DNA from: an uncultured Actinomycetes bacterium
Lineage (GTDB): Bacteria > Actinomycetota > Acidimicrobiia > Acidimicrobiales > RAAP-2
Assembly: GCA_903900235.1 (NCBI GenBank)
Contig: CAIUMH010000102.1
Coordinates: 1-32,840 of the forward strand
DNA length: 32,840 bases
Direction of reading: 5' to 3'
Shown here: one piece after another, positions 23,974-32,840 of the stretch
Numbering within the stretch: position 1 is the first letter of the stretch
Layout: every line of letters begins with the position of its first letter
The notes under the pieces: model-generated
Told to the model about the DNA's origin: nothing
Seen by the model: the letters and a program-made list of their open reading frames with translations, nothing else
The model's database searches: none
Translations under genes and position numbers: made by a program

Positions 23974-24698
23974 CGGGAGCCTCCGTCGAGGTTGTGGTGG
24001 GGGACGAGGAGGTCGCTGGCCTCTTGTGGGGTGATGCCCGGGTAGAGGGCAGCGATGAGACCGATGGCGAGGATGGCCCCGACGATCTGGGCTCCCACGA
24101 AGCCGGGGACCGAGGCGGGGGCGATCCCGGCGAAGCTGTTTGAGAACATCCGACCGATGGTGATGGCGGGGTTGGCGAAGCTTGTCGAGGAGCAGAAGAA
24201 GTAGGCGGCGGTGATGTAGGCACCAACAGCGGCCGGAGTGATCGACGAGCGCTCCGAGCGAGCGAGGCTGAAGATGACAAGAAGGAGCCCGATGGTGGCG
24301 ACCACCTCGGAGAGCAGGTGCGGTGCGGACGCACGGTGGTGGGTGGAGATCGAGACCGCGGAGAGGGAGAACATCACATTGGCCAGCACAGCACCGGAGA
24401 TGCAGCCGGCCACCTGGGCGGGCAGGTAGGCCGCAGCGTCGCGCAGCGAGATCCCACCGAATGCCGCATCGACGAAGGAGACCACGGGGTTGAGGTGAGC
24501 ACCGGAGACTGGTCCGAACATCAAGATGATGGCGAAGAGTCCAGCCCCGGTGGCGAGAGCGTTTTCGAGCAACTCAAGGCCGACGTCGCTCGGGGACAGC
24601 TGTGCGGCGGCGATGCCAGAGCCGATGACCAGGGCGGCGAGCAGCGCGCTTCCGAGGTATTCGGCCAGCAGTCGTCGCCAAAGTTGGACGTCATTCAT
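23970..24698 (-). CDS. aqpS: AqpS-like MIP-family channel (metalloid efflux)
   Basis: A 242-residue aquaglyceroporin-type protein with six membrane helices. The first half-helix motif is NPV (70-72, GAHLNPVVSF) in place of NPA, and the second is NPA (176-178, SFANPAITIGR). The residue right after the second NPA, usually the selectivity-filter Arg, is Ile; a basic Arg occurs only at 183. In ars operons of other bacteria such AqpS proteins let arsenite flow out down its gradient after arsenate reduction, and I recall a non-Arg residue at this place there too. No ArsB or Acr3 pump is present here, so this channel is the only visible exit. Start ATG 24698 is 27 nt after the cadI stop; its stop overlaps arsC. 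Confidence 0.88.
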   Translation of the reverse strand: MNDVQLWRRLLAEYLGSALLAALVIGSGIAAAQLSPSDVGLELLENALATGAGLFAIILMFGPVSGAHLNPVVSFVDAAFGGISLRDAAAYLPAQVAGCISGAVLANVMFSLSAVSISTHHRASAPHLLSEVVATIGLLLVIFSLARSERSSITPAAVGAYITAAYFFCSSTSFANPAITIGRMFSNSFAGIAPASVPGFVGAQIVGAILAIGLIAALYPGITPQEASDLLVPHHNLDGGSR

Positions 24699-24725
24699 GA
24701 GGTGAACCTGCTCGTGATGGCGACG

Positions 24726-25190
24726 TCAGCAGCAGCCGGACTGGGCGGCAGCGGTCGGTGCCGAGGTCAGTGTCACCGAGTCGGCGGTGCAGCACCGCTC
24801 ATCACCGCCAAGCGCCTCGGCACCGTCGGCATCTGCCAGCACGGTGTAGACCTCCCAACGCTCGGCATCAGGCCCGTCCACCCAGACCTTGTCCTGCACG
24901 GCGAAGCAGCAGGTGGTCTGCTCTTCGATGTCGGTGGCCAAGCCCTTGGCGGCGAGAGCCAGTGTGGCCTTTTGGACCTCGGCCGTCGTTGCCACCTCGA
25001 CGCCGAGGTGGTTGATCGATCCGGGCTCGCCAGCACCCTCGATCAGCACCAACTTGAGCGGCGGCTCCACGATGGCGAAGTTGGCGTAGCCCGGTCGGAT
25101 CTTGGCTGGCGTGGTGCCGAAGAGCTTGGAGTAGAAGTCGATGGCCGCGTCGAGGTCGGAGACATTGAGGGCAAGCTGCACACGAGACAT
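24726..25190 (-). CDS. cadI: ArsI/CadI-family vicinal-oxygen-chelate protein
   Basis: A 154-residue protein of the glyoxalase/VOC fold that resembles mycobacterial CadI from its first residue: MSRVQLALNVSDLDAAIDFY, then SKLFGT, RPGYANFAI and EPPLKLVLIEG. The hallmark TTCCFAVQDKVWV holds the vicinal pair Cys94-Cys95 that binds organoarsenicals in ArsI C-As lyases. Of the His-His-Glu metal set known for ArsI, His61 and Glu113 are present, but position 5 is Gln. Two further Cys pairs (133-134, 153-154) lie in the C-terminal tail. Roles could be cleavage of methylarsenite or metal binding and detoxification. It starts at ATG 25190 with AAGGA 7 nt upstream and is first in the minus-strand ars operon. 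Confidence 0.88.
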   Translation of the reverse strand: MSRVQLALNVSDLDAAIDFYSKLFGTTPAKIRPGYANFAIVEPPLKLVLIEGAGEPGSINHLGVEVATTAEVQKATLALAAKGLATDIEEQTTCCFAVQDKVWVDGPDAERWEVYTVLADADGAEALGGDERCCTADSVTLTSAPTAAAQSGCC

Positions 25191-25205
25191 GGTGGAGTCC
25201 TTCGA

Positions 25206-25221
25206 ATCGATAGGTGTCGAT
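25206..25221. promoter_or_regulatory. ArsR-type operator, copy 1
   Basis: ATCGATAGGTGTCGAT: a perfect ATCGA/TCGAT inverted repeat with a 6-bp spacer. It lies where the minus-strand transcript should begin, 5 bp past the -10 element. It matches copy 2 at 14 of 16 positions. Confidence 0.65.
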
Positions 25222-25225
25222 GTAA

Positions 25226-25254
25226 AGTATGCTCAACACATCGATAGATGTCAA
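25226..25254 (-). promoter_or_regulatory. Promoter of the cadI-aqpS-arsC operon
   Basis: On the minus strand: a perfect -35 TTGACA (25254-25249), a 17-bp spacer and -10 CATACT (25231-25226), four of six consensus matches. Transcription would start near 25219, inside operator copy 1, while copy 2 covers the -35. ArsR bound to both sites would block polymerase. Confidence 0.65.
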
Positions 25255-25255
25255 T
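25240..25255. promoter_or_regulatory. ArsR-type operator, copy 2
   Basis: ATCGATAGATGTCAAT: ATCGA and TCAAT half-sites with a 6-bp spacer, one mismatch in the dyad. It starts 34 bp after copy 1 and overlaps the minus-strand -35 element. It also lies 41 bp before the arsR start, so arsR is probably autoregulated. Confidence 0.65.
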
Positions 25256-25296
25256 ATGGAAGAGGTCGAGAGATCTCGTGAGGGAAGGAGCAAGCG

Positions 25297-25644
25297 ATGG
25301 TGCCGGACGATCCTGCCGATTTGCTGTGCGGTGACCCCATCACGGAGCACACGCTCGCAGAGCCCGATGCCGTCGAATTGGCCGGGGTGTTCGCTGCATT
25401 GGCCGATCCGGTGCGCCTTCGCTTGCTCTCGATCATCGCCAGCAATGACGAGACCTGCAGCTGCAATCTCGAGGCGCCGCTAGCCAAGAGCCAGTCGACG
25501 ATCTCTCATCACACCGCCAAGCTCGCGGCAGCCGGTCTGATCGTCGGCGAGCGCAGAGGCCGGTGGACCTGGTGGCGAGTTGTGCCTGAGCAGCTCGCCG
25601 CTCTGCAATCGTCGTTGCGGGTGGTCCAAGACCATCAGGCCTGA
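25297..25644 (+). CDS. arsR: ArsR/SmtB-family metalloid-responsive repressor
   Basis: A 115-residue winged helix-turn-helix repressor. LAGVFAALADPVRLRLLSII is the usual first part of the fold. ETCSCNLEAPLAKSQSTISHH spans the metal-sensing CxC (Cys54 and Cys56) at the start of the DNA-recognition region, equivalent to the ELCVCDL motif of plasmid ArsR. The last strands, GLIVGERRGRWTWWRV, form the wing. A third Cys at residue 11 could complete the arsenite site. Strong ribosome binding site AAGGAG (25285-25290) lies 6 nt before the ATG. It is divergent from cadI-aqpS-arsC and shares two operator copies in the 106-bp gap. It should release DNA when arsenite or a similar soft metal binds. Confidence 0.92.
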   Translation: MVPDDPADLLCGDPITEHTLAEPDAVELAGVFAALADPVRLRLLSIIASNDETCSCNLEAPLAKSQSTISHHTAKLAAAGLIVGERRGRWTWWRVVPEQLAALQSSLRVVQDHQA

Positions 25645-25649
25645 TCAGT

Positions 25650-25871
25650 TCAGGGATCTGTTCTTCGCGTCGCTCTCCATCGCCCCAGCGCGATCATCGA
25701 CCAGAGCATCTCGATGACGCCAAAGGGCCAGGCTCCGGAGGCGAAGCCATAGAGGCTCGACAGGAGGCATCCGAGAGCGAAGAGCCCGACATAGCGGGAC
25801 CCCCGGTGCTCGAGGGCGTACATCCCCATCATGAAGGAGAGGGCGACGACACCCGCCACCGTCAGCATCAC
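25650..25871 (-). CDS. Small conserved membrane protein
   Basis: A 73-residue protein (72 if ATG 25868 is used rather than GTG 25871) with two or three hydrophobic helices and a short basic C terminus. The pattern GMYALEHRGSRYVGLFALGC, then LSSLYGFASGAWPFGVIEMLW, resembles small actinobacterial membrane proteins I have seen without a function (YALE near the start, GxWPFGxxE-W in the second helix). Its stop is 6 nt from the arsR stop, convergent. A 12-bp palindrome ATCAGGCCTGAT at 25634-25645 overlaps the arsR end. Likely a real gene; function unknown. Confidence 0.62.
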   Translation of the reverse strand: MMLTVAGVVALSFMMGMYALEHRGSRYVGLFALGCLLSSLYGFASGAWPFGVIEMLWSMIALGRWRATRRTDP

Positions 25872-25893
25872 CGACAGGTTCCCCTATCGCGCA

Positions 25894-27618
25894 TCATGAG
25901 GATTCTGATGCCTCAGCGACCTCGAGCCACTCGTCTTCGGCGGTGCTCTTCTCGGCGCGCACGGCGGCGAGCTCATTACCGAGGCGACGGAGCTCGACAT
26001 GGTCGGTGGTGGCGAGGAGCTGCGTGGTCAATTGTTCGGAGCGACGATCGAGCTTGGCGACAAGCTTGTCGAGCTCGCGCAGGCGACGCCCCGCTCCCGT
26101 CATGTCGGTTGACGGAGGCGTGCGGGCCGGCTGCTTCGATGGCGCCGCTGGTCGCGGCGACCTCGAACGCTGCTGGGCGGCCACCCACGACGCCACTCCT
26201 CCAGGCACCGCCGTGATCGAGCCGTCCACTCCGATGGCGAGCGGGACCTCGATCATCCGGTCAAGGAAGGCCCGGTCGTGGCTGACAACGATCAAGGTTC
26301 CCGGCCAGTCATCGAGCAGATCCTCAAGGACCCGGAGCGTCTCGAGATCGAGATCGTTCGTCGGCTCGTCGAGCAGCAGAACGTTGGGGTGAGTGGCGAG
26401 CACCCGCAGGAGCTGGAGCCGCCGACGCTCTCCTCCCGAAAGCGTCCCCACCTTGGCAAAGGGGAGGTTTCCGGTGAACCAAAACCGCTTCATGAGCGCT
26501 ACGTCGTCGAGCGATCCCGGGGTACCGCTCGTCCCGGCCACCACGTCTTGGACTCGGGCATCGGGATCGAGGGCCTCGGCATGCTGGTCGTAGTGCCCGA
26601 TGGCCACGGTGGGGCCGACCTCGATCGTTCCCGATGCCGGAGCAAGCGCCTGAGCGATCAGGCGCAGCAGGGTGGACTTGCCGGTGCCATTGGCGCCGAG
26701 GATGCCGATGCGATCGCCGGGACCGATGAGCAGATCGACGCCGTTGAGCACGGGCTGTTCGTCGCCGTAGGCGAAGGAGACTCCGGAGAATTCGATCACC
26801 TTGTCGCCGAGGCGGGTCATGTTGGCCTCAAGGAGCAGGTCGGTCGGACGGGCTGCCTCGAGTGGTTCATGGGCGAGCAGCGCCACTGCCGCATCGACCC
26901 GGGAGCGGGGTTTCCTCGTGCGCGCCTTGGCGCCCCGACGAAGCCAGGCCAGTTCGCGTCGAGCAAGGTTCTTGCGAGTGGCTTCGGCTGACGCTGCGAG
27001 CTCGTCGCGGCGAGCAGCAGCCTCGAGGTAGGAGGCGTAGCCGCCCTCGTGCAGATAGCCCGAGCCTCGATCAAGCTCAAGCATGCGAGTCGTGACCCGA
27101 TCGAGCAGGTAGCGATCATGGCTGACGATGACCAGTCCGCCCCGATAGGTGGCCAACCAGTCCTCGAGCCAGGCAATCCCCTCGAGATCGAGGTGGTTGG
27201 TCGGCTCGTCGAGGATCAGCAGCTCGCTTGGGGCGGCCAGCGCGGCGGCCAGCGCCACGCGCTTGGCCTGACCTCCGGACAGCTCGCTCACTGATCGGTT
27301 GATGTGGCTGCTCATCCCGAGGCGGTCGAGCGCCGCCTCAGCCTCCCATCCAGGTCCGATGGCTTCGCGGACGCTTGACCCGGCGAGGTCGGGGACCTGG
27401 CCGAGGAAGATCGTGCGGGCACCGCTCCCTCGGCGGATGTCGCCGCCATCGGGTGTGACGAGGCCGGCCATCACGCGCAGCAGGGTGGACTTGCCAGTGC
27501 CGTTGATGCCCAAGACCCCAAGGCGGTCACCGGTCGAGACGGTCAGCGACAGCTCGTCGAAGAGCACCTTGTCGGGCTCGGCCATGCTCACGCGCTGCAG
27601 GTCGATCAGCACGCTCAC
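25894..27618 (-). CDS. ABC-F ATPase, Uup-like
   Basis: A 574-residue soluble protein with two ABC domains and no membrane part. Domain 1: Walker A GINGTGKST (37-45), signature LSGGQ (113-117), Walker B LILDEPTNHLD (134-144). The linker contains AWLRRGAKARTRKPRSRVD, the basic element of the Uup branch. Domain 2: GANGTGKST, LSGGERRR, and LLLDEPTNDLDLE. A charged C-terminal helical hairpin (about 500-570, REL-x-KLVAKLDRRSEQL) matches the Uup coiled coil. ABC-F proteins act on the ribosome to relieve stalls or antibiotics. The first domain lacks a long arm insertion. GTG 27618 has TACGGT 7 nt upstream. The Uup branch call is by linker and C-terminal coil only, so the symbol is left blank. Confidence 0.88.
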   Translation of the reverse strand: MSVLIDLQRVSMAEPDKVLFDELSLTVSTGDRLGVLGINGTGKSTLLRVMAGLVTPDGGDIRRGSGARTIFLGQVPDLAGSSVREAIGPGWEAEAALDRLGMSSHINRSVSELSGGQAKRVALAAALAAPSELLILDEPTNHLDLEGIAWLEDWLATYRGGLVIVSHDRYLLDRVTTRMLELDRGSGYLHEGGYASYLEAAARRDELAASAEATRKNLARRELAWLRRGAKARTRKPRSRVDAAVALLAHEPLEAARPTDLLLEANMTRLGDKVIEFSGVSFAYGDEQPVLNGVDLLIGPGDRIGILGANGTGKSTLLRLIAQALAPASGTIEVGPTVAIGHYDQHAEALDPDARVQDVVAGTSGTPGSLDDVALMKRFWFTGNLPFAKVGTLSGGERRRLQLLRVLATHPNVLLLDEPTNDLDLETLRVLEDLLDDWPGTLIVVSHDRAFLDRMIEVPLAIGVDGSITAVPGGVASWVAAQQRSRSPRPAAPSKQPARTPPSTDMTGAGRRLRELDKLVAKLDRRSEQLTTQLLATTDHVELRRLGNELAAVRAEKSTAEDEWLEVAEASESS

Positions 27619-27625
27619 TGAGCCA

Positions 27626-27631
27626 ACCGTA
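27626..27631 (-). promoter_or_regulatory. Possible leaderless -10 box TACGGT before the ABC-F gene
   Basis: TACGGT on the minus strand, 7 nt, then GTG 27618. There is no ribosome binding site. It lies in the 64-bp gap after the Fe-ADH stop. Confidence 0.4.
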
Positions 27632-27682
27632 TCGGGCGCGATGAAGTCACCGAAAGGGCCACCGGGGCTTGCGGCGTGCGGG

Positions 27683-28861
27683 TCAGACGACCCGTGCCTC
27701 GAGCGCCAGGGCGGCGCTGAAGGCGGCGATCACCTCGTCCTTGGTCCAGGGGACCGGGGCCATGGTGATGAAGTAGTCCTCAAGGGCGAGGTCTGCCAGG
27801 GTGTCGAGGTCGTTGGGTCCAATGTCGAGGCTGCGCAGGACGGGGAAGTCAAGCTCGGCGAGGATGCGGTCGACCGCTCGGACTGCTCGGCTGCCGTCTC
27901 CCGAACCATCGTCGGGCTCGCCCATGGCATCGGCGACCCGCTCGAGGACGGCGGGGACGTGCGCCGCCTCGCGCGCAAGGGTCTGAGCGAGCATGAGGCC
28001 GATGGTGAGGCCGTGGGGAACGTGGCGGATCCCGCCGATGGCTTGGCCGAGGGAGTGCTCGGCCGAGCAGTCCGAGACGTTCATGGTGAGCCCGGCCATC
28101 ATCGAGCCACACGACATGGCGGCCCGAGCCTCGGCGTCGGAGCCATCACGGTAGGCCGACACAAGGGCCGGAGTCATCATGCGGATCGCCTCGAGGGCGA
28201 TCGCGTCACCGATGGGCGTCCGGCAGGTGGCCACCATGCCGGCGATGGCCTGGGCGAGAGCGTCGATGCCGGTGTTGGCAGTCATCGAAGGCGGCATCGA
28301 ATGGGTGAGGAGTGGATCGACCAGGGCGTATTGGGCACGCAGGTTGGCATTGGCGATGCCGTTCTTGCGTCCCGCCTCCGGGTCGGAGACCACGGAGCCA
28401 CCGGAGACCTCTGAACCCGTCCCGGCGCTGGTGGGGACAGCGATGAGCGCTACCTGAGGAGCGGGATAGCCCGGGCTGGAGGCGAGGAAGCCACGGAAGT
28501 CGGTACCGAGCTGAGCGCACAGGCGTGCTGCTTTGGCCGTGTCGATGACGGAGCCACCACCGATGGCCAGGACACAGGTTGCTCCGGAGGCCGCCAACGC
28601 AGCGGTGGCCTCATCGACCATGGCGATCGTGGGCTCGGCGGCCGGCTTGTCGAACCGAGCGATACGAAGGTCGTCAATGGCGTCAAGATCACGAAGTAGA
28701 AGGGCGACTGCGGGGTTGTGGGCCTCAATGCCCTCGTCGACCATCACAAAGACCGAGGAGGTAGCGAGCTCGGCAAGGACGGCGGGAATGGTGCTGGCGA
28801 TGCCCTCGCCGAAGCGGATCTTCACAGGAAGGTGGTTGGCGAAGGATGCGATAGCAGTCAT
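27683..28861 (-). CDS. Iron-containing alcohol dehydrogenase family protein
   Basis: A 392-residue type III alcohol dehydrogenase fold protein. The N-terminal part has the IRFGEGIAS start and the NAD(P)-binding GGGSVID at 101-107, with PTSAGTGSEV following at 143-152. Three of four expected metal ligands are present: Asp200 (TGIDAL), His269 (AEHSLGQ) and His283 (VPHG). The second, normally His four residues after the Asp (DALxH), is Gln204 here. The family includes NAD-dependent alcohol, lactaldehyde and maleylacetate reductases and the mycofactocin-linked methanol dehydrogenases; which one this is cannot be told. Its start ATG 28861 faces a DUF4436 gene across a 150-bp gap. Fold certain, activity uncertain. 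Confidence 0.88.
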   Translation of the reverse strand: MTAIASFANHLPVKIRFGEGIASTIPAVLAELATSSVFVMVDEGIEAHNPAVALLLRDLDAIDDLRIARFDKPAAEPTIAMVDEATAALAASGATCVLAIGGGSVIDTAKAARLCAQLGTDFRGFLASSPGYPAPQVALIAVPTSAGTGSEVSGGSVVSDPEAGRKNGIANANLRAQYALVDPLLTHSMPPSMTANTGIDALAQAIAGMVATCRTPIGDAIALEAIRMMTPALVSAYRDGSDAEARAAMSCGSMMAGLTMNVSDCSAEHSLGQAIGGIRHVPHGLTIGLMLAQTLAREAAHVPAVLERVADAMGEPDDGSGDGSRAVRAVDRILAELDFPVLRSLDIGPNDLDTLADLALEDYFITMAPVPWTKDEVIAAFSAALALEARVV

Positions 28862-28957
28862 CGTGCTCTCTCTGGCTAGCGGGAAGGTTCCCCCACTCTT
28901 ACCGGTTATCGCCCCGCCGCCAAGCCTCCGACATGGCCCGACAGAAGCTCCATAGCG

Positions 28958-28963
28958 TAGAGT
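28958..28963 (+). promoter_or_regulatory. Possible -10 element TAGAGT before the DUF4436 gene
   Basis: TAGAGT in the 150-bp divergent gap, about 55 nt before the likely start. No good -35 at 16-18 bp is present. The gap otherwise shows no clear operator. Confidence 0.3.
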
Positions 28964-29018
28964 CTGGATCTCTTGAGCACGGAGGAATGGGCGTCAAGCG
29001 AGGCGAAAGGGCATGTCC

Positions 29019-29954
29019 ATGGAAGTCGAGGAAGCACCGAGGGGTGGAAACTCCGCCGAGACGGTGGCCGGTCGCCGTCGGATCGCCAAGATCCTGCTGA
29101 TTGTCCTCGCCGTGTTCATCGTGTTGGTACAGGTGGCCACGTTCGTCTCTCGGGCCAAGACCGCATCGTCCGACGCATCTCCGGAGATCTATCGCGACGC
29201 CGGCTGGTGGGCTGGTCACAGTTACATCGAGATTGACGCACAGGTGCTCGCCGTCACCCCAACCAACGCCAGTGAGACCGTCCGACTGACCGTCGTACCT
29301 CATGGCCGATTCGCCAAGAATGGCGGCGAGTTGGCCCAGTCGATCAACCTCGATGCCGACGGCTACGCCGGTGGAACCATCACCCTGCTCGCCGGGGAGA
29401 TTCCGCCACCAGTGATGTTGACGCTCGATCTGGTGGGAGACCTGAGCCAGTACCCCCTCGATAAGTACACGGCGAACCTGACAATCAACCTGCGGCCGGT
29501 GGTCGCCGGACAGCGGGCAGAGGTCGCAGTGCCCACGGTGCTGTCGGTGGACTCGATCAAGCACGATTGGAAGACAAATAGCAGTCTGATTCAAACGACG
29601 AACCGGGAGATCGCGGTCCAACTCACGTCAGAGCGCGGGACAGCGACGATCGGCTTCGCCCTCTTTGAACTCCTCATCATGTTGTTCCTGGCTTGCATCG
29701 CAGTGGCGATTACCTATGCCGCCATCGTGAGTCCAAAGCCCCTTGAGTTCTCGCTGTTCGTCTGGCTCGGGGCCATGCTCTTCGCCCTGCCGGCCATCCG
29801 GGGAACAATGCCGGGCGTGCCGGGTGTCGGGACCATGGCGGACTTCGGTATCTTCTTCTGGTGCCTGTTCGCGGTGGCCAGCTGCCTCATCGTGGCGGCG
29901 ATCACCTTTGTGCGCACCAGCCTGCGGTCACACCGCGAGCAACCTGACGACTGA
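29019..29954 (+). CDS. DUF4436 membrane protein
   Basis: A protein of about 311 residues. One N-terminal helix (about 24-42) is followed by an extracytoplasmic beta-rich domain (about 45-200) containing LVGDLSQYPLDKYTANLTI, and then three C-terminal helices. This topology and the YP-x-DKY motif fit DUF4436, a family known from mycobacteria and other actinobacteria without a defined role. In-frame ATGs lie at 29013 and 29019; GAAAGG (29005-29010) is only 2 nt before the first but 8 nt before the second, so 29019 is preferred. The C terminus is charged and faces the cytoplasm. Divergent from the Fe-ADH and followed 35 nt later by exonuclease III with its own promoter. Function unknown. Confidence 0.75.
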   Translation: MEVEEAPRGGNSAETVAGRRRIAKILLIVLAVFIVLVQVATFVSRAKTASSDASPEIYRDAGWWAGHSYIEIDAQVLAVTPTNASETVRLTVVPHGRFAKNGGELAQSINLDADGYAGGTITLLAGEIPPPVMLTLDLVGDLSQYPLDKYTANLTINLRPVVAGQRAEVAVPTVLSVDSIKHDWKTNSSLIQTTNREIAVQLTSERGTATIGFALFELLIMLFLACIAVAITYAAIVSPKPLEFSLFVWLGAMLFALPAIRGTMPGVPGVGTMADFGIFFWCLFAVASCLIVAAITFVRTSLRSHREQPDD

Positions 29955-29976
29955 ACCGGGGCTGACGGGAGCCTCG

Positions 29977-29982
29977 TAGGAT
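29977..29982 (+). promoter_or_regulatory. Leaderless -10 box TAGGAT before exonuclease III
   Basis: TAGGAT, 7 nt, ATG 29990, with no ribosome binding site between. Confidence 0.45.
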
Positions 29983-29989
29983 CCTGCGG

Positions 29990-30790
29990 ATGCGCATCGC
30001 CTCGTGGAACGTCAATGGGATCAGGGCCGTCCAGCGGAAGGGTCTGTGGGACCCCTTCGTGGCCGAGGTCGCACCAGACGTCATCTGCCTCCAGGAGATC
30101 AAGGCGGATCAGTCCCAGGCAGACGTGGATCTCGAGGGCTACCACGAGATCTGGCACTCAGCCGAGAAGAAGGGCTACTCAGGCACGGCGATCTTCTCGA
30201 AGATTGAGCCTCTCCGCACCACCACGGGCCTGTCGGCCCGACTGGCGAAGAAGCACGGCCTAGCGGAGGACTCATTCGGCGATCCCAATGCTGAGGGACG
30301 GGTGATCACCGCGGAGTTCGAAGACTTCTACCTCGTCACCGTCTACACCCCCAACGCCAAGAGCGACCTGAGCCGCCTCGCCCTTCGTCACGAGCGATGG
30401 GACCCGGCCTTCCTCGACCACCTCCGTGCGCTTAAGAAAAAGAAGCCGGTAGCGGTGTGCGGCGACCTCAATGTGGCTCACACCGAGGACGACCTCGCTC
30501 ACCCAAAGCCCAATGTCGGTAAGGCCGGCTTCACCAACGAGGAGCGAGCCGGGATTCAGGCCTTCCTCGACGCAGGGTTCGTCGACAGCTTCCGGATGTT
30601 CACGCAAGGCAATGGCCACTACACGTGGTGGTCGAACTTCTCCAAGGCACGGGAACGAAACGTGGGATGGCGAATCGACTACTTCTTGGTCTCCGATGAC
30701 CTGGCCCCGAGAATCGAGGCTGCAGCGATCCACGCCCACATCATGGGCAGCGACCACTGTCCGGTGACCATCGATGTCCGGACCGCCTGA
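29990..30790 (+). CDS. xthA: Exodeoxyribonuclease III / AP endonuclease
   Basis: A 266-residue member of the EEP nuclease family, normal length for ExoIII/ExoA. All landmark motifs are seen in order: IASWNVNGIR at the start, CLQEIKAD (catalytic Glu), KKGYSGTAIF, EGRVITAEF, YTPNAKSDLSR, CGDLNVAH (Asp and Asn of the active site), GWRIDYFLVS, and the final GSDHCPVTID with catalytic Asp-His. It cuts DNA 5' of abasic sites and trims 3' blocking groups in base excision repair in the cytoplasm. Start ATG 29990 is leaderless by the TAGGAT box. No neighbour is functionally linked. Very secure. Confidence 0.95.
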   Translation: MRIASWNVNGIRAVQRKGLWDPFVAEVAPDVICLQEIKADQSQADVDLEGYHEIWHSAEKKGYSGTAIFSKIEPLRTTTGLSARLAKKHGLAEDSFGDPNAEGRVITAEFEDFYLVTVYTPNAKSDLSRLALRHERWDPAFLDHLRALKKKKPVAVCGDLNVAHTEDDLAHPKPNVGKAGFTNEERAGIQAFLDAGFVDSFRMFTQGNGHYTWWSNFSKARERNVGWRIDYFLVSDDLAPRIEAAAIHAHIMGSDHCPVTIDVRTA

Positions 30791-30882
30791 TCCGCTGTCG
30801 CGGCGGACTCGCCACTGATCGCGTCGAGGTCGAGGCGTGCCTCGCCCCGATTGGCTCACTGTCATCTCGGGACATGGATGCC

Positions 30883-30888
30883 TATCCT
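30883..30888 (+). promoter_or_regulatory. Leaderless -10 box TATCCT before the MBL pseudogene
   Basis: TATCCT, 6 nt, ATG 30895. It supports the ATG at 30895 over the in-frame ATG at 30874 and shows that the promoter of the broken gene is still intact. Confidence 0.45.
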
Positions 30889-30894
30889 CGAGAG

Positions 30895-31654
30895 ATGAGC
30901 AACCACGATCAGCGTCGCAGCATTGAAGCCGACGACACTCGGACCGCCACTTCACCGACGGGGGCGCTGGTTCATGAGGTTGCCCTCGAGCAGAGTCGCC
31001 GGCTCGAGCGTCGCCTCCATGAGGTGATCCCCGGAGTGGCGTGGAATCTCGTGGGCAACGGACTTTCCAATCAAAGCTTCATCCTCGGCCCCGAAGGAAT
31101 CATCTGCATCGACACCGGTGAGTCAAGGGAGGAAATGGAGGCCGCTGTTGCCGAACTGCGCCGGGTCTGCGATGCACCGCTGGCCGCAGTCCTCCTGACG
31201 CACTTCCACGATGTGGGTGGCACGCCGGACGCCTGCGGCCAACATCCGCAGCTGGTGCCTGACTCGGGCCCTCGAGCTTGAGGGAGCACTCGATCTCTCA
31301 TCGCTGCGCCATCCGAGCCTCAGCGCAGGTTCGGTGACGTTTGCTCCGCTCGATGACACTGTCGAGCAGCTCAGGGTCCTGGTGGATCCGGTACTCCTTG
31401 GAGATGTTGACGCCAAACTCCAGCTGCGATGCGGCGACGAGGTCGTCGCGATGCACCTGCGCCATGGCGTGGTGGTCCCCTGCGAGGACCGTTCTGATGC
31501 TGGCCTCGAGGTGCAGTGCTCGAAGGAGGTGCTTGGTGGGATCCTGACCGGCTCTGTCCGCGTCAGCGACGCGCTCGGGGCTGCTGAGCTCGAACTCCAG
31601 GGAGACGCCACGCTCCTCGCAATCCCCCTCAAGGCACTAGATACGGCAGCCTGA
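30895..31654 (+). pseudogene. Alkylsulfatase-like MBL-fold protein, internal deletion and frameshift
   Basis: Two parts of one gene in different frames. From ATG 30895 the first frame gives GVAWNLVGNGLSNQSFILGP, CIDTGES and VLLTHFHDVGGT: the first strands and first metal motif of the MBL domain in alkylsulfatase-type enzymes (SdsA1 relatives). It then loses similarity and stops at 31279-31281. From about 31230 the +1 frame reads AANIRSWCLTRALELEG and then the C-terminal SCP2-like sulfatase domain (LVDPVLLGDVDAKLQL, MHLRHGVVV, ELELQGDATLL), stopping at 31652-31654. The second metal motif, the rest of the MBL domain and the dimerisation helices are absent; probably 150 or more residues were deleted. 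The product would be inactive. An assembly join is an alternative. Confidence 0.72.
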
Positions 31655-31755
31655 GTCGCAGGAATGGACCTCGCTCGGCAGCGTCGGCCCTGACGCTCGG
31701 TGACCCGACGGCCAACGTGAGGAGGTCTGGTGTTCCTTCGGCGGAGCGACTGCGC

Positions 31756-31761
31756 CATAGT
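31756..31761 (+). promoter_or_regulatory. Possible leaderless -10 box CATAGT before the lipoprotein gene
   Basis: CATAGT, 6 nt, ATG 31768. A GGAGG sits within those 6 nt but is only 1 nt from the ATG, too close for normal use, so leaderless start is favoured. Confidence 0.35.
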
Positions 31762-31767
31762 GGAGGT

Positions 31768-32241
31768 ATGCGACGCACCCAGATCCTCCTTGCCAGCATG
31801 CTGGTCTCCCCGCTCCTTCTTGCCGCGTGTTCGTCGACCCCATCGTCGACGGCCAAGACGACCACCACGATCGACCCAGACGTCGAACAGGTGATCGCTG
31901 CTGCCACCGCGCAGGCGGTGGCTGCGGGGATCCCAGCCTCGAGCATCACGGTGAACGCAACCGTGTCGACCGCCAATGACTCGTGGATGCGCTTCACCGT
32001 CGCGGCGAAGGATCCGACATCGGCGGCCTTCCAGCCGTATTACGGCTATGCCCAGCAGACCTCGAAATGGAGTGTCATCGCCATCGGAACCGCGCAGGTC
32101 GGCTGCCCGACGACGAGCAGCGGCTCCCTCGGGGGCATGACGACCACGACCACTGCTGCGGGGGCGGCACCGAGTGGCACCGTGCCGACAGATGTCCTCA
32201 AGTCCTTCGGCGAGTCCTGCCCACCGATGAATCACGCTTGA
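31768..32241 (+). CDS. Small secreted lipoprotein
   Basis: A 157-residue protein. The signal has MRR, a hydrophobic core and the lipobox LLAAC, followed by a Ser/Thr-rich linker with STAKTTTT. A helical segment (DPDVEQVIAAATAQAVAAGI) and a beta-type region (ITVNATVSTANDSWMRFTV, then YYGYAQQTSKWSVIAIGTAQ) follow. A second linker with TTTTT precedes a tail with two Cys (one before and one after). No family recognised. The frame is open up to GTG 31717, but ATG 31768 puts the signal peptide at the N terminus. The STAKTTTT linker also occurs in the ABC binding lipoprotein at 22556-23452. Part of this gene is repeated just downstream. Confidence 0.78.
   Translation: MRRTQILLASMLVSPLLLAACSSTPSSTAKTTTTIDPDVEQVIAAATAQAVAAGIPASSITVNATVSTANDSWMRFTVAAKDPTSAAFQPYYGYAQQTSKWSVIAIGTAQVGCPTTSSGSLGGMTTTTTAAGAAPSGTVPTDVLKSFGESCPPMNHA
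31871..31996 (+). repeat. Direct repeat, copy 1 (inside the lipoprotein gene)
   Basis: This 126-bp segment recurs at 32238-32363 at a constant offset of 367 bp without gaps and with roughly 14 differences, several of them near the right end. The core from CAGGCGGTGG to GCATCACGG is identical. Confidence 0.85.
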
Positions 32242-32363
32242 CCCTGACCTCGAGCAGGTGATCGCTGCTGCCGCAGCCCAGGCGGTGGCTGCGGGGATCC
32301 CAGCCTCGAGCATCACGGCGAACGCAACAGTGTCGACCGGCACTGACTCGTGGAGGCAGTTCG
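32238..32363 (+). repeat. Direct repeat, copy 2 (begins at the lipoprotein stop codon)
   Basis: Copy of 31871-31996. Its left edge coincides with the stop codon of the lipoprotein gene. The offset is not a multiple of three, so the copy is read in another frame than the upstream gene. Confidence 0.85.
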
Positions 32364-32506
32364 CTGCATGCTGTCGCCCTCGGATTCTCGTCAACGAAAC
32401 GGCAATCAGCTCTTTCTTGGCCCCCGAGCGCTCTGCGCGCCGATCTCGATGCCAAGGTCTGACCGGCCGGGGCCGCCGCCTCACCGAGGAAAGCGTCGAT
32501 CGGTGA
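32240..32506 (+). pseudogene. Truncated second copy of the lipoprotein gene
   Basis: An open frame reading DPDLEQVIAAAAAQAVAAGI, then PASSITANATVSTGTDSW, aligns with the lipoprotein (DPDVEQVIAAATAQ and so on). It has no signal peptide, no lipobox and no promoter, and after TDSW the sequence no longer matches and becomes Arg/Cys-rich to TGA 32504-32506. Many of the differences between copies are conservative, hinting that the second copy was once a separate working gene before its 5' and 3' parts were lost. A GTG at 32258 could start a short peptide but has no good ribosome binding site. Confidence 0.65.
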
Positions 32507-32563
32507 GACCGCTAGACGGCCGGGTTTCCGGTGAGTATCGACGCCCTCGTCCGACCCATGGGC

Positions 32564-32840
32564 CTATGTCCCGCTTGCTGTGTCGACCACTGCGTCGAGA
32601 GCCAGGTTGGCTGCCTCGGGTTCTGGAATGCCAAGCGCCTGGAGGAGCCGTTGAAGGATGCTGCAGCGATACGCCATCGCGTCTTGGCCGTCCGCAATCC
32701 TGCGAGCGGCGAGGAGGAGGGACCCTAGGACGACGTCGAGCGTCCCGTCGTCAGGTGGGCTGCTGAATCGACCGCTCGTGAATCCGTCCGTGAGGTCTTG
32801 GCGCAGATGGGCGAGGGGCCCCTCGTCGAGCAGTCCATGC
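32564..32840 (-). CDS. C-terminal part of a probable TetR-family regulator
   Basis: An open frame with no start inside the window runs in from the right edge on the minus strand for 92 codons to TAG 32566-32564. It reads HGLLDEGPLAHLRQDLTDGF at the edge, then GTLDVVLGSLLLAARRIADG, and ends AYRCSILQRLLQALGIPEPE, AANLALDAVVDTASGT. The helix spacing, the LLLAAR helix and the LLxALGxxxxEA-LA ending are typical of the ligand-binding half of TetR proteins. The DNA-binding domain lies outside the window, so the family call is moderate. Third codon positions are GC-rich, which supports coding. Confidence 0.55.
   Translation of the reverse strand, partial: HGLLDEGPLAHLRQDLTDGFTSGRFSSPPDDGTLDVVLGSLLLAARRIADGQDAMAYRCSILQRLLQALGIPEPEAANLALDAVVDTASGT

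Follow-up and report, generated by a model that had tools for sequence, protein, structure and literature searches.

The closest described relatives of the gene considered here are the type III alkylsulfatases SdsA1, SdsAP, Pisa1 and YjcS. In the account of SdsAP, Glu322 is given as the acidic ligand common to both zinc ions (PMC5426288). As for the way in which such a gene may be lost, the nearest precedent is found among the pseudogene-making deletions of Haloquadratum walsbyi, in which a segment between short direct repeats disappears and one repeat copy remains at the join; direct repeats of 4-20 bp are documented there as deletion sites, some of them with imperfect repeats in the intact strain (PMC3119063). 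At the level of expression, the TAnnnT element is described as a signal of leaderless transcription in high-GC Actinobacteria (PMC3160421).

The window, that is, the whole stretch of 32,840 bases analysed here, represents one entire contig (C102) of a draft assembly that totals 2.40 Mb in 157 contigs and is 96.55% complete. Its positions 30895-31654 contain, according to the list of open reading frames and the comparison with orthologues, the start and end pieces of a single alkylsulfatase-like gene lying in different frames. This locus is very probably an ordinary deletion pseudogene, in which 950 nt would have been deleted, in this lineage, from the middle of a gene of about 580 codons, most likely through a repeat-mediated event, leaving a product that should be inactive.

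Two colinear pieces of one gene

When searched separately, the N-terminal and C-terminal pieces match the same ORF, in the same order, in each of two genomes, G081 and G034. These nearest relatives carrying the gene are MAGs titled uncultured Acidimicrobiaceae. In G081 (contig C275, CAININ010000275.1) the ORF is intact and encodes 579 amino acids, with 68% identity to the N piece (E 1.0e-50) and 59% to the C piece (E 3.9e-44); in G034 (contig C69, CAIQOJ010000069.1) the intact ORF encodes 592 amino acids, and the respective values are 71% (E 1.4e-50) and 60% (E 1.0e-35). The first-pass annotation, which had described an N-terminal metallo-β-lactamase (MBL) part and a C-terminal SCP2-like part joined in different frames, is thus borne out, since both parts match one ORF. 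Trees built separately for each half from 77 rows (76 family members plus the window, taken from the best 80 of 352 loci with L081, L122, L133 and L141 excluded) place both halves with L065 and L066, the loci of G081 and G034. This group has support 100/99 in the N-piece tree and 100/100 in the C-piece tree. Which of the two loci lies nearer to the window differs between the N and C trees, the former retaining only 109 columns. A fusion of two different genes is rejected, as each half, in its own tree, lies beside the same two orthologues.

All parts of the remnant lie on the forward strand. The N-terminal MBL remnant (30895-31224) comprises 110 codons, which correspond to residues 1-110 of the full-length orthologues and end in THFHDVGGT, and is followed by an out-of-frame tail (31225-31281) that has no equivalent in the orthologues and closes with the stop codon at 31279-31281. 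The C-terminal remnant (31217-31654), which includes the end of the dimerisation region and the SCP2-like domain, runs from orthologue residue 425 to the stop. An ORF beginning with the ATG at 31211 stays open for 147 codons up to 31654 and matches Alkyl_sulf_C with an E value of 6.1e-08. By either relative, taking V107 and V425 of the orthologues as anchors, the missing segment measures 950 nt, and the frame change arises because 950 nt equals 2 mod 3. The comparison with a full-length orthologue that had been proposed at the outset therefore gives the same answer twice. The deleted part corresponds approximately to residues 109-424, so that most of the MBL domain past the first zinc motif is gone, together with nearly all of the dimerisation domain (Alkyl_sulf_dimr spans residues 311-446 in the intact G081 protein), in agreement with the absence of central catalytic and dimerisation regions reported initially. 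The join itself is real, but as read from the draft assembly sequence it falls within 31209-31224, slightly to the left of the position near 31230 first assigned to it. On the other hand, neither piece carries internal stops beyond the frame change, which counts against the reading of the locus as a deletion pseudogene.

The start and the promoter form are shared with the intact proteins of G081 and G034. A -10-like element, TATCCT (30883-30888), lies 6 nt upstream of the start codon and is predicted to be a promoter of the leaderless type; the whole TATCCT-N6-ATG unit occupies 30883-30897. At the same distance G081 has TAGTGT and G034 has TAGCCT, so that TANNNT-N6-ATG is common to all three and the initial description of this promoter as intact stands. 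BLASTN similarity to both relatives begins 16 nt upstream of the ATG. Among the 79 of the best 80 loci with an identifiable start region, TANNNT precedes the candidate start with spacers of 5, 6 and 7 nt at 14, 27 and 15 loci, respectively, and at each other spacer from 0 to 13 nt at 0-3 loci, it being possible for one locus to count at several spacers. Judged from the sequence, this conserved spacing is consistent with leaderless transcription.

At the join, the ten bases GGGTGGCACG (31215-31224) are compatible with both sides when compared with the two orthologues: in the left frame they provide G108, G109 and T110, the conserved G-G-T after HFH-V, and in the right frame V425 and A426, the V-A of the conserved R-V-A-R-R-T-P. 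An overlap of about 10 bases that fits both sides points to a deletion between direct repeats, and this stretch is the probable scar of such an event. The likeness to the Haloquadratum walsbyi cases lies in the disappearance of the sequence flanked by short direct repeats, one copy of which remains (PMC3119063); what differs is that the second copy is here inferred. Counting against the repeat mechanism, the junction sites of L065 and L066 have only a 2-nt common run in the needed register, which implies either that the repeat arose in this lineage or that chance accounts for part of the overlap. In the 77 intact members compared, drawn from the best 80 of 352 relatives, the longest in-register run is 7 nt and occurs once, and a common word of at least 8 nt anywhere in the two 55-nt neighbourhoods is found in 6 of the 77.

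The series of events that we favour would start from an intact single gene of about 580 codons bearing two short direct repeats of approximately 8-10 nt, between which slippage or illegitimate recombination would have removed 950 nt of the middle. Translation would then yield a truncated peptide of 128 residues, the last 18 of them foreign, with the C-terminal piece left out of frame. Because the MBL domain of this protein would stop short of its second half and almost the entire dimerisation domain would be missing, it should be inactive.

Age of the break and rival readings

The divergence of the two halves provides an indication of when the gene broke. For the N half, the remnant has dN values of 0.183 and 0.186 to its orthologues, compared with 0.166 between the intact orthologues themselves; for the C half the corresponding values are 0.330 and 0.361, compared with 0.344. 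Synonymous sites are near saturation. Residues unique to the window are in slight excess in both halves, with 11 against 9 and 8 in the orthologues for the N half, and 17 against 10 and 15 for the C half, an excess small enough to count against the pseudogene reading. One of these residues is the D at position 106, where all 80 loci compared have Y, and this departure counts in its favour. Since the dN of the remnant is barely above that found between intact copies, little drift would have accumulated after the break, and on the basis of this protein divergence the loss of the gene is probably recent. Through most of its existence the gene was probably functional, and the break came late.

It is unlikely that the contig misrepresents an intact gene, either by having been wrongly closed over 950 nt or by belonging to a minority strain. 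This alternative, already raised as an assembly collapse in the first-pass annotation, draws some weight from the draft state of the genome, from the contig end lying 1.2 kb from the locus, and from a repeated segment close downstream, near that end (a direct repeat of 130 nt, 88% identical, at 31866-31995 and 32233-32362). Assembler k-mer sizes usually exceed about 10 nt, however, and the overlap at the join is no longer than that. In addition, a search of the assembly with a full-length orthologue yielded nothing but the two halves and two distant paralogues, and no third piece of the gene, so that the missing middle is on no contig. The join also alters an otherwise invariant residue, position 106 being D in the window and Y in 80 of 80 loci (the best 80 of 352 relatives), and the C piece lies in another frame; all of this disfavours a collapse.

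Less probable still is a split gene in use, in which the SCP2-like C piece would be translated from the ATG at 31211, or +1 frameshifting would join the two frames, to give a lipid-binding protein. Its open frame of 147 codons at 31211-31654 with a retained Alkyl_sulf_C match, and a C-piece divergence resembling that of an intact gene, would suit such a product. Nevertheless, inspection by eye reveals no -10-like element or ribosome site upstream of 31211, and a sigma-70 scan, which is not designed for this promoter type and misses TATCCT as well, predicts no promoter on the forward strand in 30700-31900. Nor was a stand-alone C piece seen among the relatives: the five short open frames checked (in G379, G402, G528, G229 and G077) all run off contig ends, and none has a central deletion. 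A further frame of 494 amino acids, in G050, adjoins a contig end. The deletion pseudogene remains the preferred reading; annotation pipelines may label the 31211-31654 ORF as a sterol-carrier-like protein, overlooking its nature as debris.

The intact family and its metal site

The family from which the remnant derives is of more interest than the remnant itself. Alkyl_sulf_dimr and Alkyl_sulf_C are found in the three intact proteins scanned, with the Alkyl_sulf_C score of G034 below the curated cut-off, and Lactamase_B is above threshold in one of the three. The intact orthologue is related to type III alkylsulfatases with phmmer E values of 8.1e-33 to 7.3e-23 and identities of 20-24%. Its predicted model (mean pLDDT 86.4, with low confidence at 233-247) resembles SdsA1, SdsAP, Pisa1 and YjcS in having the three-domain fold, and superposes on these structures with Z scores of 31.7-35.9 over 532-543 aligned residues, nearly its whole length. 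The Foldseek list contained no solved structure closer to the family than about 24% identity.

Unlike these enzymes, the family does not have the HxHxDH zinc motif, in place of which [TS]HFHY[VI]xG stands at all 80 loci examined (the best 80 of 352 relatives); in the phmmer alignment the loop is two residues shorter and without the Asp-His pair. Moreover, the residue aligned with the acidic ligand of SdsAP, as that ligand is given in the account of the enzyme, is an asparagine (N231), found by pattern in 80 of the best 80 of 352 relatives and invariant in an alignment of 40 rows. In this alignment, whose rows were picked by hand for spread and which was used for folding, His103, His105, Tyr106, Asp213, Asn231 and His273 are invariant; the His273 pattern matched 59 of 80 loci and the PSDA[DE]D pattern 76 of 80, and invariance was taken from the alignment columns instead. 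The remnant, in addition, is without the middle. Since HxHxDH is replaced by HFHY and the acidic ligand by Asn in the family, alkyl sulfate cannot be taken for granted as the substrate.

These features bear on the proposal that the break reflects a recent loss of alkyl sulfate use, of which the recent loss of a gene by deletion is retained and the metabolic part is rejected. The same assembly encodes, at C67:56548-58650, an intact canonical alkylsulfatase ORF of the SdsA1 type with the motif THSHIDHFGG, which matches Lactamase_B, Alkyl_sulf_dimr and Alkyl_sulf_C strongly. Because this canonical enzyme persists and the broken clade is without the canonical zinc ligands, the loss of alkyl sulfate use is unsupported; a deletion pseudogene in such a family should not be equated with the loss of the activity. 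A third, distant relative in this genome (C22:7958-8686; L155, L159), within a frame of 488 amino acids, has a dimerisation domain and the motif TQGHYDHVGG.

On grounds that we consider evenly balanced, the broken gene would belong to a widespread and apparently uncharacterised clade with an alkylsulfatase fold, leaderless promoters and a rebuilt metal site without the Asp-His pair or the bridging acid, which may bind a single metal or have a substrate different from alkyl sulfates, and of which the window would hold one natural loss. No paper on an HFHY-type alkylsulfatase clade was found by title or abstract start, which is a weak test of novelty. If the metal site is truly altered, the intact family would be a tractable target in the search for a new MBL activity among uncultured actinobacteria that are abundant in aquatic settings.

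Distribution and genomic setting

Relatives are encoded by 352 stretches in genome_contigs, of which the best 80 were retained, and 14 of these 80 have proteobacterial record titles. HFHY and the Asn are invariant across Acidimicrobiia and some records titled Caulobacteraceae (L065-L144). Two records, L144 (CAMDEC010000035.1) and L135, are titled 'Bifidobacterium breve' and 'Acidobacteria', yet in the trees they group with actinobacterial sequences and are probably misnamed bins. Viral carriage was considered as the source of the gene and rejected, as none of 44 pattern matches in viral_contigs encodes a relative. Closer to the window, 39 of 148 relatives match the N piece at all with E <= 0.001, many at paralogue level. 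At E <= 1e-12 the N piece has a match in 15 of the 172 genomes in its family, and at E <= 1e-10 the C piece has one in 65 of the 397 genomes in its order, the own genome included in both counts.

In the five other genomes of the same genus (G001-G005), neither half finds a match as strong as an orthologue would give: for the N half, G001 and G003 give weak matches at paralogue level (E 9.3e-5 and 4.7e-6), and the C half has no match in any of the five. G003 (contig C20, L061) matches window positions 24380-30774 with 76% identity over 6.4 kb, and this synteny ends right after the gene of the Exo_endo_phos family (an exonuclease gene, 29990-30790), the upstream neighbour of the remnant; beyond the equivalent of 30774 the G003 sequence is unrelated to the window. 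The lack of orthologue-strength matches in G001-G005 and the end of synteny at 30774 place the remnant in a variable region (30800-32840). G081 and G034 show no match to the window outside the gene, and synteny support for its vertical descent was obtained from none of G003, G081 and G034. Either this lineage acquired the gene, or the sister genomes lost it. Within the same region, the 130-nt direct repeat corresponds to a lipoprotein-like gene (31717-32241) whose beginning recurs directly downstream, at the contig end, as a partial, frame-broken copy, which adds another mark of decay next to the remnant.
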